DNA of 64,000 bases from positions 140,830 to 204,829 of the IMG/VR virus record IMGVR_UViG_3300024502_000010; one strand, given 5' to 3'. Of the stretch, positions 17,584 to 55,355 are shown piece after piece. The position numbers were made by a program, and so were the translations under genes. Numbering within the stretch: the first letter of the stretch is position 1; every line of letters starts with the position of its first letter. The notes under the pieces were generated by a model. The model had not been told where the DNA came from. It saw nothing but the letters and a program-made list of their open reading frames with translations, and did no database searches. The DNA comes from a virus.

Positions 17584-18516
17584 TTAATTCGTGTACTTAT
17601 TTACGATATTATCAAAAAATTTTGGAAGTGTCAATCCAGACAAATCCATTTTTTGAGCTTTTTGGAATAAATGATCGTTTTCTATTAATAGATTTTCATT
17701 TACTTCGGAGTATTTATCCACAAAAAGAACAGGGTAATCTGCAAATAAAGTTTCCAAATAAAGATGCCTCTTCATAATTGGAACTCTTCTCATATAAAGA
17801 ACTTCCCAATTACGATGACAATCAATAGCATTTCCTCTTGGGCATATCATAAATTTTGATTGACTAAGATTATAAAGAAACACAGAAAAAGAAACTCTAT
17901 TTTCATGTACCACTGCCCAAGATTTATTCCTGAACATTTCTTTTATTCCCTTCCTTTCTTCATTGGAAGATTCGTTGTGACTCACATATAAAAGTCCGGG
18001 AGGATTATTTGGAAGATTTTTTGAAGCGCCTTTAATTTCAGATACTCTCATATCATTAGGATTCATTGCTCTCTGCAGTCCATAAGGAGCTGGGATAACT
18101 TTTCCACCATTAGCAATAGCATTTACTGCAGAAATGCACAAAACATTATTGGGTATCAAGTCAAAGATATAATCATCAATGGGAGTATCCTCAAGATTTG
18201 TGAAAATAATAAAATTCATTTCAGGAAAATTTGAGCAAAGATTTAATAAATCACTCCTTTCCATTAATGAATTGACATATGGTCTATCAGAATCACTAAC
18301 CTCAACAATATGTCTTTTATATAAACGAATATTATCAATAAACAGAGTCATATAATCTCTGCTTTTTTTAATCTCAAATAATCTATTAACGAATTCAAGA
18401 TTCAATAAATTAGCATCTTTCATAAATGATGTAAAAATATTCCCCCATTGACCAGACTGGTCTCCGAAAGAATAATCACATAGTTTTGAAAGTGCTACAC
18501 CTTCAATCAATTCCAT
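17584..18516 (-). CDS. Exostosin/GT47-like glycosyltransferase
   Basis: The 310-residue protein has the C-terminal block KFMICPRGNAIDCHRNWEVLYMRRVPIM, characteristic of exostosin-like GT47 enzymes, preceded by LLYVSHNESSNEERKG. The N-terminal half is not diagnostic. It overlaps the GT17 gene by 10 bases. Confidence 0.65.
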   Translation of the reverse strand: MELIEGVALSKLCDYSFGDQSGQWGNIFTSFMKDANLLNLEFVNRLFEIKKSRDYMTLFIDNIRLYKRHIVEVSDSDRPYVNSLMERSDLLNLCSNFPEMNFIIFTNLEDTPIDDYIFDLIPNNVLCISAVNAIANGGKVIPAPYGLQRAMNPNDMRVSEIKGASKNLPNNPPGLLYVSHNESSNEERKGIKEMFRNKSWAVVHENRVSFSVFLYNLSQSKFMICPRGNAIDCHRNWEVLYMRRVPIMKRHLYLETLFADYPVLFVDKYSEVNENLLIENDHLFQKAQKMDLSGLTLPKFFDNIVNKYTN

Positions 18517-23758: not shown

Positions 23759-23895
23759 TATGTAACTCAGGCTCGCCACTTGCCCTTTGACTGGAGGCAA
23801 GAAACCAGGCGGGAGAGAGTCCCATCCGCACCAATTGCCCTTGAGAGAGGCAATAAACTCATAATAGGGTCATTTTGACTCCACCAGTATAAGTT
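23759..23895 (-). other. Structured gap with two look-alike hairpins and a weak 31-aa ORF
   Basis: The gap holds two related stem-loops on the minus strand, CTTGCC/GGCAAG (about 23778-23800) and ATTGCC/GGCAAT (about 23833-23853). A 31-codon frame (23767-23862, MSLLPLSRAIG...) spans both but has no supporting context. I cannot assign a function; a structured leader or degraded gene is possible. Confidence 0.3.
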
Positions 23896-28972: not shown

Positions 28973-29509
28973 TTACTTATTCATACAAAACTTAGGATGT
29001 TGCTTGTCCTTACTGTAACGTCCACCGTTACTCTTTTGGGGTGGTAAAGTTTTTTGTGCGTGGCAGTTGGGACAGACCACTTGTAGATTTTCAGGGGCGT
29101 GGTTGAAAGGGTCGTCGTCTATGTGGTCCACCTCAAGGCAGGTTCGTCCGGTATGAATGTTTGTTCCAGACCAACCACAAAGGGAACACTTACCCCCACT
29201 CGCTTCTAATAAGTAAGCACGAACACCGCTGGGAACATAACCCTGCCCTGTATGGTTCAGTTCTCCTACTTTCCACTTATCTATTGTCCATTGTCTCTTG
29301 GCTGCAGCACTACACTTGTTAGAACAGAACTTGCCAGTAGAACTCTTTTTCTTATAGTCAAACTCTACACTGCAGTAATTACAGATGGCGGTGTCCCAAC
29401 CAGTTCTTTTCCTCTTAGGAGACTTCTTATTATTATAGGTTACAGAACACGAACGGGAGCAGAACTTAGGTTTATCGTTCTCACACCCGCAGTTTAAACA
29501 AGTAGTCAT
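28973..29509 (-). CDS. HNH endonuclease with zinc-finger N-terminus
   Basis: The 178-residue protein has two or three Cys-rich finger blocks (CLNCGCENDKPKFCSRSC, CNYCSVEFDYKKKSSTGKFC, CSLCGWSG), then the HNH core LEVDHIDDDPFNHAPENLQVVCPNCHAQKT. This is the architecture of free-standing phage homing endonucleases. It is preceded by a late promoter in the loop of a hairpin (29518-29552). Confidence 0.9.
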   Translation of the reverse strand: MTTCLNCGCENDKPKFCSRSCSVTYNNKKSPKRKRTGWDTAICNYCSVEFDYKKKSSTGKFCSNKCSAAAKRQWTIDKWKVGELNHTGQGYVPSGVRAYLLEASGGKCSLCGWSGTNIHTGRTCLEVDHIDDDPFNHAPENLQVVCPNCHAQKTLPPQKSNGGRYSKDKQHPKFCMNK

Positions 29510-29517
29510 AATAGAAC

Positions 29518-29552
29518 CGAATACCTTTTATTATTTATAACACAAGTATTCG
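29518..29552 (-). promoter_or_regulatory. Late promoter in the loop of an inverted repeat (HNH gene)
   Basis: The exact late promoter TATAAATA (29532-29539) is flanked by CGAATACTT (29544-29552) and AGGTATTCG (29518-29526), which pair over 9 bp with one G-U. The 3' arm ends nine bases before the ATG. Read-through transcripts would fold over the initiation region, while late transcripts would start inside the loop and lack the 5' arm. Confidence 0.65.
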
Positions 29553-32272: not shown

Positions 32273-32932
32273 TTAGGTATTTATGAAAACTCTACCATAC
32301 CAAAAACCACTTGGAACTTCATCAATAGAGTTTATGTATTTGTTTTCATTTCCATTTGTAATCCACTTTTTACCATAACAAGGATTTTTCTCACCAAGTT
32401 TTGCCTCAATATGTTTTCTTTTTGTTTCTGGATTTTGATGAGATTTGAGTGCTGCCTGTCTATGGTTCTCAACTACTTCTGGACGATTGTGTGCTTTCTT
32501 TCCAACTCTACTTTTTAGTTTTCTCATTTCTGGATTACTCAAAGTTCTAATCAAGTTTTTTCTTGCTTTCTCTTTGAGTTTTGGATTACTCATAGGATTG
32601 TATTCTGTTTTCATCAACTCACTTCTTTTCTTGTTTGCTTCTTCACCAGCACCTTTATTACAATAAAATCCAGTAGAAGTTTGTTTTGCCCTATTAGCAA
32701 AGTGTGGATTTTTATCTACTTCATAAAAATCGTGGAGAGCACATTCTGCTTCAAGTGCTTCTTCAACACTCCCAAAAGTTTCTAATATTATTTTTTGAGT
32801 TGGATTGAAAGTTTTATCTTTGAAACTTCCAAAATAACTTACATCTTCTTCTGGAAGACATTTACATTCTCTTTTTCCAATATAACCTCTTCCATATTCC
32901 TCATAGGAATAATACACATAAAAGTGTTTCAT
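32273..32932 (-). CDS. GIY-YIG homing endonuclease with NUMOD3-like repeats
   Basis: The 219-residue protein has FYVYYSYEEYGRGYIGKRECKC (GIY-YIG core with catalytic Tyr/Arg), EALEAECALHDFYEV (the catalytic Glu region) and a DNA-binding C-terminus of NUMOD3-type blocks (NPMSNPKLKEKARKN, SNPEMRKLKSRVG, HQNPETKRKHIEAKLGEKNPCYGKKW). It is the Seg type of T4-like free-standing endonuclease. Leader has a hairpin-enclosed late promoter. Confidence 0.92.
   Translation of the reverse strand: MKHFYVYYSYEEYGRGYIGKRECKCLPEEDVSYFGSFKDKTFNPTQKIILETFGSVEEALEAECALHDFYEVDKNPHFANRAKQTSTGFYCNKGAGEEANKKRSELMKTEYNPMSNPKLKEKARKNLIRTLSNPEMRKLKSRVGKKAHNRPEVVENHRQAALKSHQNPETKRKHIEAKLGEKNPCYGKKWITNGNENKYINSIDEVPSGFWYGRVFINT
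32278..32285 (-). promoter_or_regulatory. Late-promoter variant CATAAATA
   Basis: CATAAATA lies 20 bases before the ATG of the 400-aa basic protein and inside the 3' end of the GIY-YIG gene. Confidence 0.45.
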
Positions 32933-32941
32933 ACTACTCTA

Positions 32942-33016
32942 ACTTGCTGACATTACTATTTATACAAGAAAGGAGTGCCGAAGCACTCCAATCCCACCTG
33001 AAAAGTGTCAGCAAGT
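32942..33016 (-). promoter_or_regulatory. Terminator plus late promoter enclosed by an inverted repeat (GIY-YIG gene)
   Basis: ACTTGCTGACA (minus strand, 33016-33006) and TGTCAGCAAGT (32952-32942) form a perfect 11-bp repeat. Between them are a UUCG-loop terminator, GGAGTGC/GCACTCC (32972-32989), and the exact late promoter TATAAATA (32957-32964). The 3' arm ends ten bases before the ATG. Same layout as at 29518 and 54716. Confidence 0.7.
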
Positions 33017-33029
33017 CAGGTAAAGTTAT

Positions 33030-33683
33030 TTAGACATCAGCAAGAACCAATCGTTTAGCATAGTCATAAGCATATTGTGTTCTTGCTCCATGGTGTCCCC
33101 ATCCAATCCATTCGTAGGCATAATTCATATACCTATCAATAGATTTTCCAGAAACTTTCATTCTGTTTTCAATACTCTTCCATTGTGGTTCAGTAGTAAT
33201 ATACCGAAGTTGAGTATCAGCAGTAGAAGGATTACCTCCTATTTTTTTAGCAAAAGCACCCAGTCCATAATAACGAGAAGCAGAAGTAAATTGTATCAAA
33301 CCATAACCTCTTCCACAATTATAGTATGAGGTTCTACTACCACCTTCACAAATGTTAGGCACGAATGTTGATTCCTGTCTAATATTGCCCATGATGGTAG
33401 CAAGGGCGTTTCTGTCTCTAATACCACGATCCTGGAAAAATGCCAGGGTAGCATTCTCATGTTCATTACACCCTTTACAAATTAGTCTTTTCTCTTTTGG
33501 CTTTGGTGGTGCAACCTCTAGGATTGCTGTCTTCTCGGGTTCAAACTCTTTAATAATAGAATAAGGTTTTTCATCCACTGGGGGAGGAGGACCTTGCAGT
33601 TTATAACTAGAGAAAGGCAGTGATGCCGTATTGGTTGTAACCATTGCTAAAAGAGGAACGGCTACAGTAAAGAAGTTTAGCAT
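33030..33683 (-). CDS. Tail-lysozyme-domain protein with N-terminal membrane anchor
   Basis: The 217-residue protein starts at MLNFF (33683). Residues about 2-20 form a signal anchor; a Pro/Lys linker follows (PPPPVDEKP); the C-terminal 130 residues match the phage tail lysozyme fold (NATLAFFQDRGIRDRNALATIMGNIRQES, GYGLIQFTSASRY, WKSIENRM). Catalytic Glu is probably in the IRQES motif. Peptidoglycan cleavage at entry or lysis is expected. Confidence 0.83.
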   Translation of the reverse strand: MLNFFTVAVPLLAMVTTNTASLPFSSYKLQGPPPPVDEKPYSIIKEFEPEKTAILEVAPPKPKEKRLICKGCNEHENATLAFFQDRGIRDRNALATIMGNIRQESTFVPNICEGGSRTSYYNCGRGYGLIQFTSASRYYGLGAFAKKIGGNPSTADTQLRYITTEPQWKSIENRMKVSGKSIDRYMNYAYEWIGWGHHGARTQYAYDYAKRLVLADV

Positions 33684-34050: not shown

Positions 34051-34227
34051 TTAGTAATCTTCAGGTTCTAGAGAGACAATCTCAAGTTCATCATCTTCCG
34101 GTTCAATCCACTCATAAAACTCAGCAAGAATTGCGCGTGCATCCTCTTTAGGAATGCTCATATCAGCGGCACGGTCAAGAGACCATGACCTAACATGAGC
34201 AACAATATCTTCAGTCGTTGCGTTCAT
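34051..34227 (-). CDS. Small acidic hypothetical protein (58 aa)
   Basis: I choose the MNATTED start at 34227. The protein is helical and acidic (EDIVAHVRSWSLDRAADMSIPKEDARAILAEFYEWIEPEDDELE). The 59 codons upstream overlap the nuclease-like gene and are probably not used. Function unknown. Confidence 0.55.
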   Translation of the reverse strand: MNATTEDIVAHVRSWSLDRAADMSIPKEDARAILAEFYEWIEPEDDELEIVSLEPEDY

Positions 34228-34654
34228 AATAGTCCTTTCGGAAGTACCTGTTGAGGATGTTGCTATTGTAGTATCTGGGCACTCCACTGTCAAGGGATTC
34301 TGTGAGAACATTGTTGAAGAAGAGTTGCCTTGTTTCTTCAAAGTTTGTTTTGCCCTTTGTTTTATGTAATGATAAAATAGTGCGCGTAAAATTCTCCCTA
34401 CCATATTTCTCTATATCTTCTTTGAGTTCTGGACATGAACCATAGTATTTTTTCCAATCAGATTCTGCCTTAACCTTTCTAGATTTTCCTCTCGGTGTGC
34501 GGAAGCTCCAGAAATATTTTCGACCAATATAGTCACGATTAGTTTTGTTGCAATGAATATGATATACGAAACCAAAATAATCCTGAATATCACTCGAACC
34601 AAATTCTTTTCCATTGTAGGTCCAAGGATTCTCATAGTCAATATCTGTACTCAT
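34211..34654 (-). CDS. GIY-YIG-like putative endonuclease
   Basis: The 147-residue protein starts MSTDID (ATG 34654; further upstream frame begins only with TTG). FGFVYHIHCNKTNRDYIGRKYFWSFRTPRGKSRKVKAESDWKKYYGS resembles the Y-x-(9-12)-YIG-R/K core of GIY-YIG nucleases, with EKYGRENFTRTIL following. No late-promoter hairpin is present, unlike the three other endonuclease genes. Family assignment is moderate. Confidence 0.6.
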   Translation of the reverse strand: MSTDIDYENPWTYNGKEFGSSDIQDYFGFVYHIHCNKTNRDYIGRKYFWSFRTPRGKSRKVKAESDWKKYYGSCPELKEDIEKYGRENFTRTILSLHKTKGKTNFEETRQLFFNNVLTESLDSGVPRYYNSNILNRYFRKDYYERND

Positions 34655-34799
34655 CAATAATATCAAGAACTTCGTTCAGATATTTATGAGCAAGTCCTTT
34701 CATATCCATTTCGGGTCTAATATGATCTTTATAAAGATTGTCTTTTAATTTCAAAACACGAACTTTAATTTCATCTTTAGTCAGTTGATTTTTAGACAT
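34638..34799 (-). CDS. 53-aa helical hypothetical protein
   Basis: ATG 34799 to TGA 34638. Charged helical protein (KNQLTKDEIKVRVLKLKDNLYKDHIRPEM, KYLNEVLDIIDEYRY). Overlaps the next gene by 17 bases and follows a terminator, so it heads a small operon. No family recognised. Confidence 0.55.
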   Translation of the reverse strand: MSKNQLTKDEIKVRVLKLKDNLYKDHIRPEMDMKGLAHKYLNEVLDIIDEYRY

Positions 34800-54302: not shown

Positions 54303-54710
54303 TTAAAGTGTGGTTTCTACTACATTATTCTTAACTGGTCTTCCAAATGTTCCAGGAGGAAACTTCATACCTTTGTTCCAAGCAGGTTTCCCCTTCATAG
54401 ACATACCGGTTTTCTGTCTTGACGCTTTATCTCTTTTTGATCCAGAAGTACCTTCACCACCATCGGTTTTATTAACCAATACACCACCACTATCTTTTTT
54501 ACCCCAAAACTTTATGAGTGCTATTTCCAAAGATAATGCTTCTTGTTCTGTTAAGTTTTCTTTTATTCTTACTATTCTATCTCTATCAGGAGGTCGTTGA
54601 GCTAATCCTAACTTTCTTTTATTTGTGTCTCTAAATCCAGAACCTTTCCCAATGTAGTAAGGAGAATATCTATCTTCACGCAAATAAGCGTAAACGTAAT
54701 ACCTTTCCAT
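54303..54710 (-). CDS. GIY-YIG homing-type endonuclease (135 aa)
   Basis: RYYVYAYLREDRYSPYYIGKGSGFRDTN has the GIY-YIG core; EALSLEIALIKFWGKKDSGG has the catalytic Glu region; a short NUMOD-like basic tail (KTGMSMKGKPAWNKGMKFPPGTFGR) follows. Free-standing nuclease between hsp20 and a virion-type gene. Late promoter is enclosed in a 14-bp inverted repeat. Confidence 0.9.
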   Translation of the reverse strand: MERYYVYAYLREDRYSPYYIGKGSGFRDTNKRKLGLAQRPPDRDRIVRIKENLTEQEALSLEIALIKFWGKKDSGGVLVNKTDGGEGTSGSKRDKASRQKTGMSMKGKPAWNKGMKFPPGTFGRPVKNNVVETTL

Positions 54711-54715
54711 CTGCT

Positions 54716-54794
54716 TTGTTTGTGGTTATAGTTATTTATAAAAGAAAAGGAGCATTTCTGCCCCCAATCCTTTGCTTGAATAACCACAAACAAG
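54716..54794 (-). promoter_or_regulatory. Late promoter enclosed by a 14-bp inverted repeat (GIY-YIG gene)
   Basis: TTGTTTGTGGTTAT-type arm (minus strand 54793-54780) pairs with ATAACCACAAACAA (54729-54716), which ends five bases before the ATG. The exact TATAAATA (54733-54740) lies between, its expected start point (about 54727) already inside the 3' arm. Late RNA could not form the hairpin; read-through RNA could. Confidence 0.75.
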
Positions 54795-54806
54795 CACTAA
54801 TATTTA

Positions 54807-55355
54807 TCAACCAATAATACTCTCTCTCCACTCTTCGCTCATATTCACCATAATTGCTTCTGCTGCTTCTGGTGTTTCAGCATATCCTTCATCAAGTAAG
54901 TGTGAGAGGATAATATCGTAAAGGTCAAAGTTTTCTCCAATCTCACCCATCGCTTGTTGCTTACGAAGTTTCTTAGGATTTTTGGTTACTGTTCCAGAAC
55001 CTTCTGTATGTTTTTTATATTTTGGATCATAAGGAGAAAGTCGTCTAGATCTTGTTGCTGCTGCTTCTCTGTTTCTGTCTCTATCCGATTGAGTCATTCC
55101 AGTTCTCATATGCCCACCAGCACCAAAAGTACCTCCCCCCTTATGTCCAAGAGATTGATGTCGTTTTATAGTTTCTGGTTCTTCTTCTCTTGATCGTGCT
55201 TTATTTTTAAGTTTCCTATACATCTCCTGTCTTTCGGGAGTTTGTCCCTTTTTTTGCCTTTCAAGTTTTGCTGCTCTATCAGCAACATCTCCTGAGGCAC
55301 CCTCAACAACTTCCATATATGCTTCTTGAAGACTACGAAATTCTTGCGCGTCCAT
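54807..55355 (-). CDS. Basic late protein sharing modules with the 46-kb repeat protein
   Basis: The 182-residue protein begins MDAQEFRSLQEAYMEVVEGAS, then a basic, Arg/Lys/Gln-rich middle, NPKKLRKQQAMGE (about residue 125) and the module FDLYDIILSHLLDEGYAETPEAAEAIMVNMSEEWRESII at the C-terminus. The last two occur, in the opposite order, in the gene at 46198. Exact late promoter. Probably virion-associated. Confidence 0.68.
   Translation of the reverse strand: MDAQEFRSLQEAYMEVVEGASGDVADRAAKLERQKKGQTPERQEMYRKLKNKARSREEEPETIKRHQSLGHKGGGTFGAGGHMRTGMTQSDRDRNREAAATRSRRLSPYDPKYKKHTEGSGTVTKNPKKLRKQQAMGEIGENFDLYDIILSHLLDEGYAETPEAAEAIMVNMSEEWRESIIG

Follow-up and report, generated by a model that had tools for sequence, protein, structure and literature searches.

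A conserved leader cassette with a predicted antisense small RNA precedes homing-endonuclease genes in T4-like cyanophages

Cyanophages, one of the main virus groups of oceans and lakes, carry homing-endonuclease genes. To our knowledge, it is understood for just a handful of genes of T4 how free-standing homing endonucleases spare the phage that carries them. The leader of one such gene raised this question for us: why should a late promoter sit inside a long inverted repeat that ends next to the start codon? The leader lies in a stretch of 64,000 nucleotides (the window), positions 140830-204829 of a 204,829-bp IMG/VR virus record. The regA/hsp20/clamp-loader region of the window matches T4-like cyanomyoviruses. 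All RNA starts and ends given here are predictions from the geometry of T4 late promoters, in which roughly one helical turn separates the TATA box from the start (PMC2988020).

Build of the leader at 54.7 kb and its relatives in the window

We found an exact TATAAATA on the minus strand, bracketed at 54716-54793 by the two perfectly matching arms of a 14-bp inverted repeat. A sequence-only reading had proposed this repeat, with a 3' arm that ends five bases before the ATG and a late start within that arm. All of this held up. The ATG is at 54710, the 3' arm ends 5 nt upstream of it, and T4 geometry places the mRNA start at ~54727, inside the arm. The repeat is far beyond chance. Among the seven exact copies of TATAAATA in the window, the bracketing repeats scored 23.0 at 54.7 kb, 22.8 at 32964 and 13.8 for the third, and a detector of the whole architecture found no match on either strand of 20 Markov-simulated windows. 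Chance origin of the repeat is excluded by these windows together with a pattern scan blind to arms and genes and with covariation (both below).

The locus contains more than a promoter in a repeat. In order, all on the minus strand, it has a late-type box, P1 (ATAAATA, 54807-54801), which overlaps the TGA stop of an upstream ORF (54807-55355) and is a candidate promoter with a predicted RNA start at ~54795; a small hairpin (GCTTG...CAAGC, 54795-54774), whose base coincides with that start and whose loop holds most of the 5' arm (TTGTTTGTGGTTAT, 54793-54780); an intrinsic terminator recognized by sequence and fold (GGGGGCAGAAATGCTCCT plus a T-run, 54765-54741), the stem of which co-varies in homologues; the late promoter box P2 (TATAAATA, 54740-54733); and a short leader with the 3' arm (ATAACCACAAACAA, 54729-54716), followed by the ATG. 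A putative 55-nt RNA (54795-54741) would thus consist of a 5' hairpin, a terminator hairpin and a T-run, and the predicted mRNA leader is complementary to it. The terminator between the arms, the small hairpin around the 5' arm and the second late box had not been mentioned by the sequence-only reading. Because the 5' arm is also part of the smaller hairpin, there are two competing folds: the small hairpin plus the terminator, or the long outer stem.

The gene downstream (54303-54710, minus strand) encodes 135 amino acids and appears from its sequence to be a GIY-YIG-type homing endonuclease. It has the motif YVY...YYIGKG and matches the homing endonucleases of PHROG 314 (4.7e-05); its Pfam match is below the cut-off.

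The same kind of leader had been said to recur at two other, unrelated endonuclease genes, at 29518 and 32942. The full cassette is present at one of the two places. At 32942 we found the same cassette, again on the minus strand, with P1 (CTAAATA, 33027-33033; predicted start 33021), a predicted 57-nt small RNA (32965-33021), a 5' arm (33019-33006), a small hairpin (ACCTGA...TCAGGT), a terminator (32989-32965), P2 (TATAAATA, 32957-32964; predicted start 32951) and a leader with the 3' arm TGTCAGCAAGTTAG (32939-32952). Its 219-aa gene (32273-32932, minus strand) also encodes a GIY-YIG/NUMOD3-type endonuclease (PHROG 314 homing endonuclease, 4.9e-12; the NUMOD3 match is just under the Pfam cut-off), so it is not unrelated in kind to the gene at 54.7 kb. 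In contrast, the locus at 29518 is of a different type. It is a short, simple hairpin in the style of I-TevI (CGAATACTT/AGGTATTCG, 29518-29552, minus strand) with TATAAATA in the loop (29539-29532) and with neither a terminator nor P1. It precedes a 178-aa HNH endonuclease gene (28973-29509, minus strand; Pfam HNH above cut-off and a PHROG HNH match), and the hairpin is kept with compensation in homologues, among them L284 with a compensatory change.

Two other features of the window were seen in passing. A wcaG RNA, a cis-regulatory RNA known from cyanophages, is at 23765-23862 on the minus strand (Rfam RF01761, 102.9 bits). An ORF at 34211-34666 (minus strand) has a GIY-YIG-like stretch, VYHIHCNKTNRDYIGRKYFW, and is possibly another nuclease-like gene.

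Spread of the cassette and its upstream junction

We searched for the cassette with a pattern that ignores the arms and the downstream gene: a box, a CCTGA/TCAGG hairpin and a second box. At least 120 stretches matched, and all but about seven of those listed had matching arms at near-fixed spacing. Among these listed matches the next gene was nearly always an endonuclease, of GIY-YIG groups, HNH groups or NUMOD types. The detector of the whole architecture, which requires TAAATA with any preceding base and does not require CCTGA, found the two cassettes in the window and a third in the same genome at ~73.2 kb. In the cultured isolate S-SRM01 it found six cassettes, with P2 boxes at 18022, 48504, 51315, 56027, 62478 and 192487, all before endonuclease genes. 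The isolates MA01 and B23 also carry the cassette, and in S-CREM2 matching arms are visible by eye where the detector made no call. MA01 and S-CREM2 have the gene at the same place, before the DNA primase gene, with different arms. In total we collected at least 150 distinct cassettes. The upstream box is A/CTAAATA, and the downstream box is TATAAATA in 139 of 150. The cassette is absent before the cyanophage endonuclease genes L249, L252, L253 and F-CphI of S-PM2. The best explanation of this distribution is that the cassette travels with the free-standing homing-endonuclease genes of T4-like cyanophages.

Two viral contigs (L132 and L190) keep P1, the hairpins, the terminator, P2 and the arms intact and have lost the endonuclease gene; the start codon is gone or the ORF is reduced to a short remnant. 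It is possible that these cassettes are relics or that they provide immunity by RNA alone.

Other leader layouts came up in the same searches. Before GIY-YIG genes at S-SRM01 77663 (L254) and Sf-CH5 156271 (L251:2001) there is a third layout, in which long perfect arms enclose TATAAATA, the 3' arm abuts the ATG and the terminator is missing. Simple hairpins of the I-TevI style with ATAAATA in the loop (L094-L106; S-SRM01 ~33047, 126148 and 142276) precede GIY-YIG, HNH and endonuclease VII-like genes. In G000 (~44.36 kb; L235:5360, minus strand), ATAAATA is enclosed by a near-perfect hairpin of 23 bp, and the 59-aa ORF that follows does not resemble an endonuclease. GIY-YIG-type genes at S-SRM01 62515, B23 41542, Sf-CH5 156271 and S-CREM2 129354 were deposited as translation initiation factor 2/UvrC; these labels are likely misannotations.

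We found that P1 is at a fixed position. In 40 of 41 distinct leaders with a nested terminator, found through protein homology, the box is exactly 7 nt from the 5' arm. Between P1 and the hairpin the spacer sequence is poorly conserved, whereas conservation is strong across the hairpin, beginning at the predicted start; that comparison was conditioned on the box, and the spacing in 40 of 41 is the unconditioned evidence. In S-SRM01, CTAAATA is found before 5 of 39 structural genes yet occurs only 21 times on that genome strand. That is, it behaves as a late box in this phage.

The stop codon of the preceding gene (TAA or TGA) is frequently within P1 or directly next to it, as at 54807 and 33030 in the window. 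We compared 51 distinct loci that have the same upstream gene. Forty-four have no cassette, six have one, and in the remaining locus (L292) the cassette is cut by the contig end. At the 44 cassette-free loci, the TGA or TAA stop is followed by the locus's own intergenic sequence, mostly a terminator, and there is no TAAATA at the stop. At the six occupied loci, the upstream stop is the TAA of P1; between them these loci show two different arms, and their endonucleases are of three start types. We had considered that P1 might be a pre-existing phage promoter beside which the unit inserted, and rejected this on the evidence of the cassette-free loci, although all six occupied sites have the same junction and could stem from a single insertion event. 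For the gene at 33 kb there are related sites with and without the cassette. We compared S-SKS1 as an empty site for an S-SRM01 cassette, but it was so diverged that it contributed little.

Pairing of the arms as RNA

The sequence-only reading had staked its proposal on conservation of the repeat, with covariation, in related phages. We found strong covariation. Homologues of the 54.7-kb and 33-kb proteins gave 25 and 80 loci in viral contigs. In many of their leaders every part of the build is retained and the two arms vary in concert: TTGCTGACA, TTGGTGACA, TTGTGTGGTA, CGGGTGACA, GGGTCGCA, GTGTCGGCA and TGAACCGCAA each occur with their complement. In 26 leaders of one leader family, 96.4% of the cells of the outer stem were paired, and changes on both sides were present in 11 of 15 pairs (61 such cells). 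The alignment contained a 27th row as well, a single stray base entered in error. None of 500 shuffles of these leaders matched the observed pairing or covariation score, and at most one of 500 matched any measure. Pairing fell to 43% or less when the arms were slid, and RNAalifold recovered the outer stem unprompted. The 3' arm begins 3-5 nt past the P2 box in the homologous leaders. The small 5' hairpin is also conserved as a structure: in 38 cassettes that lack a literal CCTGA/TCAGG stem the stems vary widely, and 95% have the hairpin, versus 21% of shuffles.

The mismatches indicate which molecule pairs. Among interior single mismatches in the arms, 72 were G.U and none were A.C, although many of the G.U cases are at one position and the 72 are not independent events. 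This asymmetry shows that pairing is in RNA of the gene strand. It also bears on the notion that the repeat acts as DNA, either as an operator or cruciform bound by the endonuclease, much as in I-TevI autorepression, or as the ends of a mobile unit. I-TevI does bind an operator over its own late promoter (PMC2988022), and the cassette does go with mobile genes and fills sites that are empty in relatives. However, G.U is tolerated where A.C does not occur, the repeat does not bracket the gene, and the arms vary a great deal in a single protein family yet are found in common at unrelated endonucleases. On the asymmetry we reject a cruciform or operator as the main role, and we regard any DNA-level reading as largely refuted and very improbable.

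No two arms within one genome were fully identical in 22 records with multiple cassettes. Matches of a 7-nt core were as frequent as expected by chance (2 of 42 versus 2.6 expected), so we do not claim selection for different arms within a genome.

A candidate antisense RNA and how it compares with known systems

Covariation by itself is predicted equally by pairing in cis and in trans. Our preferred model, which we consider probable, is that a small antisense RNA from the same strand represses the endonuclease message, with sequestration in cis of read-through RNA as a second layer. P1 would start an RNA at the base of the hairpin that presents the 5' arm as a loop, and transcription would stop 55-57 nt on, at the intrinsic terminator. 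P2 (TATAAATA), directly after the terminator, would drive the endonuclease mRNA, whose 17-24-nt leader would begin at the 3' arm. The short RNA would accumulate and act in trans: it would pair with the leader, from the predicted start of the mRNA as far as the ribosome-binding region, and repress translation. RNA that reads through the terminator would be silenced in cis by pairing of the same arms.

The main rival is the logic of I-TevI acting in cis only. The arms would hide the start only in read-through RNA from upstream, and late RNA from TATAAATA, which lacks the 5' arm, would be translated; the terminator would merely cut read-through further, and P1 and the small hairpin would have no separate role. 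This has precedents in the leader hairpins of T4 I-TevI, I-TevII, I-TevIII and segB and of Aeh1 mobE (PMC2988022). The predicted late start is where the 3' arm begins, simple hairpins are known at 29518 and in L094-L106, and the RNAalifold fold is the outer stem. But the cis-only logic accounts neither for the fixed P1 box nor for the conservation of a small hairpin in competition with the outer stem, and the terminator would remove most of the RNA on which it acts. We think it unlikely as the whole account. Given the conserved terminator, the hairpin around the 5' arm and the constant distance of P1 from that hairpin, we favour a separate small RNA and not only a hairpin in cis.

We compared predicted duplexes between short RNAs and leaders. 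With whole short RNAs, the own leader was best in 26 of 62, a comparison blurred by GC-rich terminators; because of this we repeated it with the 5' part only. Cognate duplexes were then at -21.9 +/- 2.3 kcal/mol versus -9.4 +/- 3.3 kcal/mol for non-cognate ones, and in 52 of the 61 arm classes no leader scored better than the own one. The cognate duplex was best for all six cassettes of S-SRM01. It might be that the short RNA is real and that pairing activates or protects the mRNA, or that its main targets are elsewhere, for example transcripts of other phages. The sign of the effect is not fixed by sequence. However, the pairing spans the whole leader to the ribosome-binding region, which is normally repressive, and the 205-kb genome has no further perfect match to either the 54-kb or the 33-kb arm. 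We consider these alternatives improbable.

The nearest kin of the cassette are the leaders of T4 I-TevI, I-TevII, I-TevIII and segB and of Aeh1 mobE. The sequence-only reading invoked I-TevI, and part of that comparison stands: there is a homing-endonuclease gene with a late promoter box inside an inverted repeat, a 3' arm beside the start codon, a start region that would be hidden in longer RNA, and compensatory pairing at the level of RNA. As reviewed, the T4-type cases have one hairpin each, which is true of 29518 and not of 54.7 and 32.9 kb. In the cassette the loop also contains a terminator, another hairpin competes with the stem, and there is a further late box; together these parts would form a separate RNA unit.

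A non-coding RNA tied to a cyanophage homing endonuclease is known, namely CfrI of S-PM2, an antisense RNA linked to F-CphI (PMC2984593; AJ630128). CfrI is ~225 nt long and overlaps both psbA and the F-CphI gene from the opposite strand, whereas the cassette RNA would be on the same strand. At F-CphI itself the terminator and TATAAATA are present and the arms are absent. Besides CfrI, we found no other cyanophage antisense RNA at a homing endonuclease in the literature searched.

Type I toxin-antitoxin systems also have a short structured RNA beside a potentially harmful gene that pairs with the 5' region of the mRNA. Their RNAs are usually encoded on the opposite strand or in a divergent unit. 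In the cassette, the RNA would come from the same strand directly upstream, it would owe its complementarity to an inverted repeat, and a phage late-type box precedes each of the two units. The features of an antisense regulator, that is, a promoter of its own, a terminator and complementarity to the leader of its target, are recognizable as sequence.

Rfam covariance models gave no match up to E = 1 to the cassettes or the hairpin at the three loci in the window. We found no description of the cassette in the open-access literature; subscription papers were mostly outside that search, so this is weak evidence. We suggest, tentatively and with slightly less than even confidence, that the cassettes make up an undescribed family of phage small RNAs, with about 60 anti-leaders, encoded on the same strand upstream of the genes and restraining several endonuclease folds in trans. 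Cassettes without an endonuclease (L132 and L190) may persist because their RNA silences incoming endonucleases, a form of RNA-based immunity to homing.

In cyanophages, one portable RNA cassette precedes many endonuclease genes of several folds, and it flags endonuclease genes that have escaped annotation. Should the short RNA act in trans, selfish genes would be seen to restrain themselves in a new way, numerous repressors with their matching leaders would be ready to hand, and RNA immunity between phages that infect together might rest on such cassettes.
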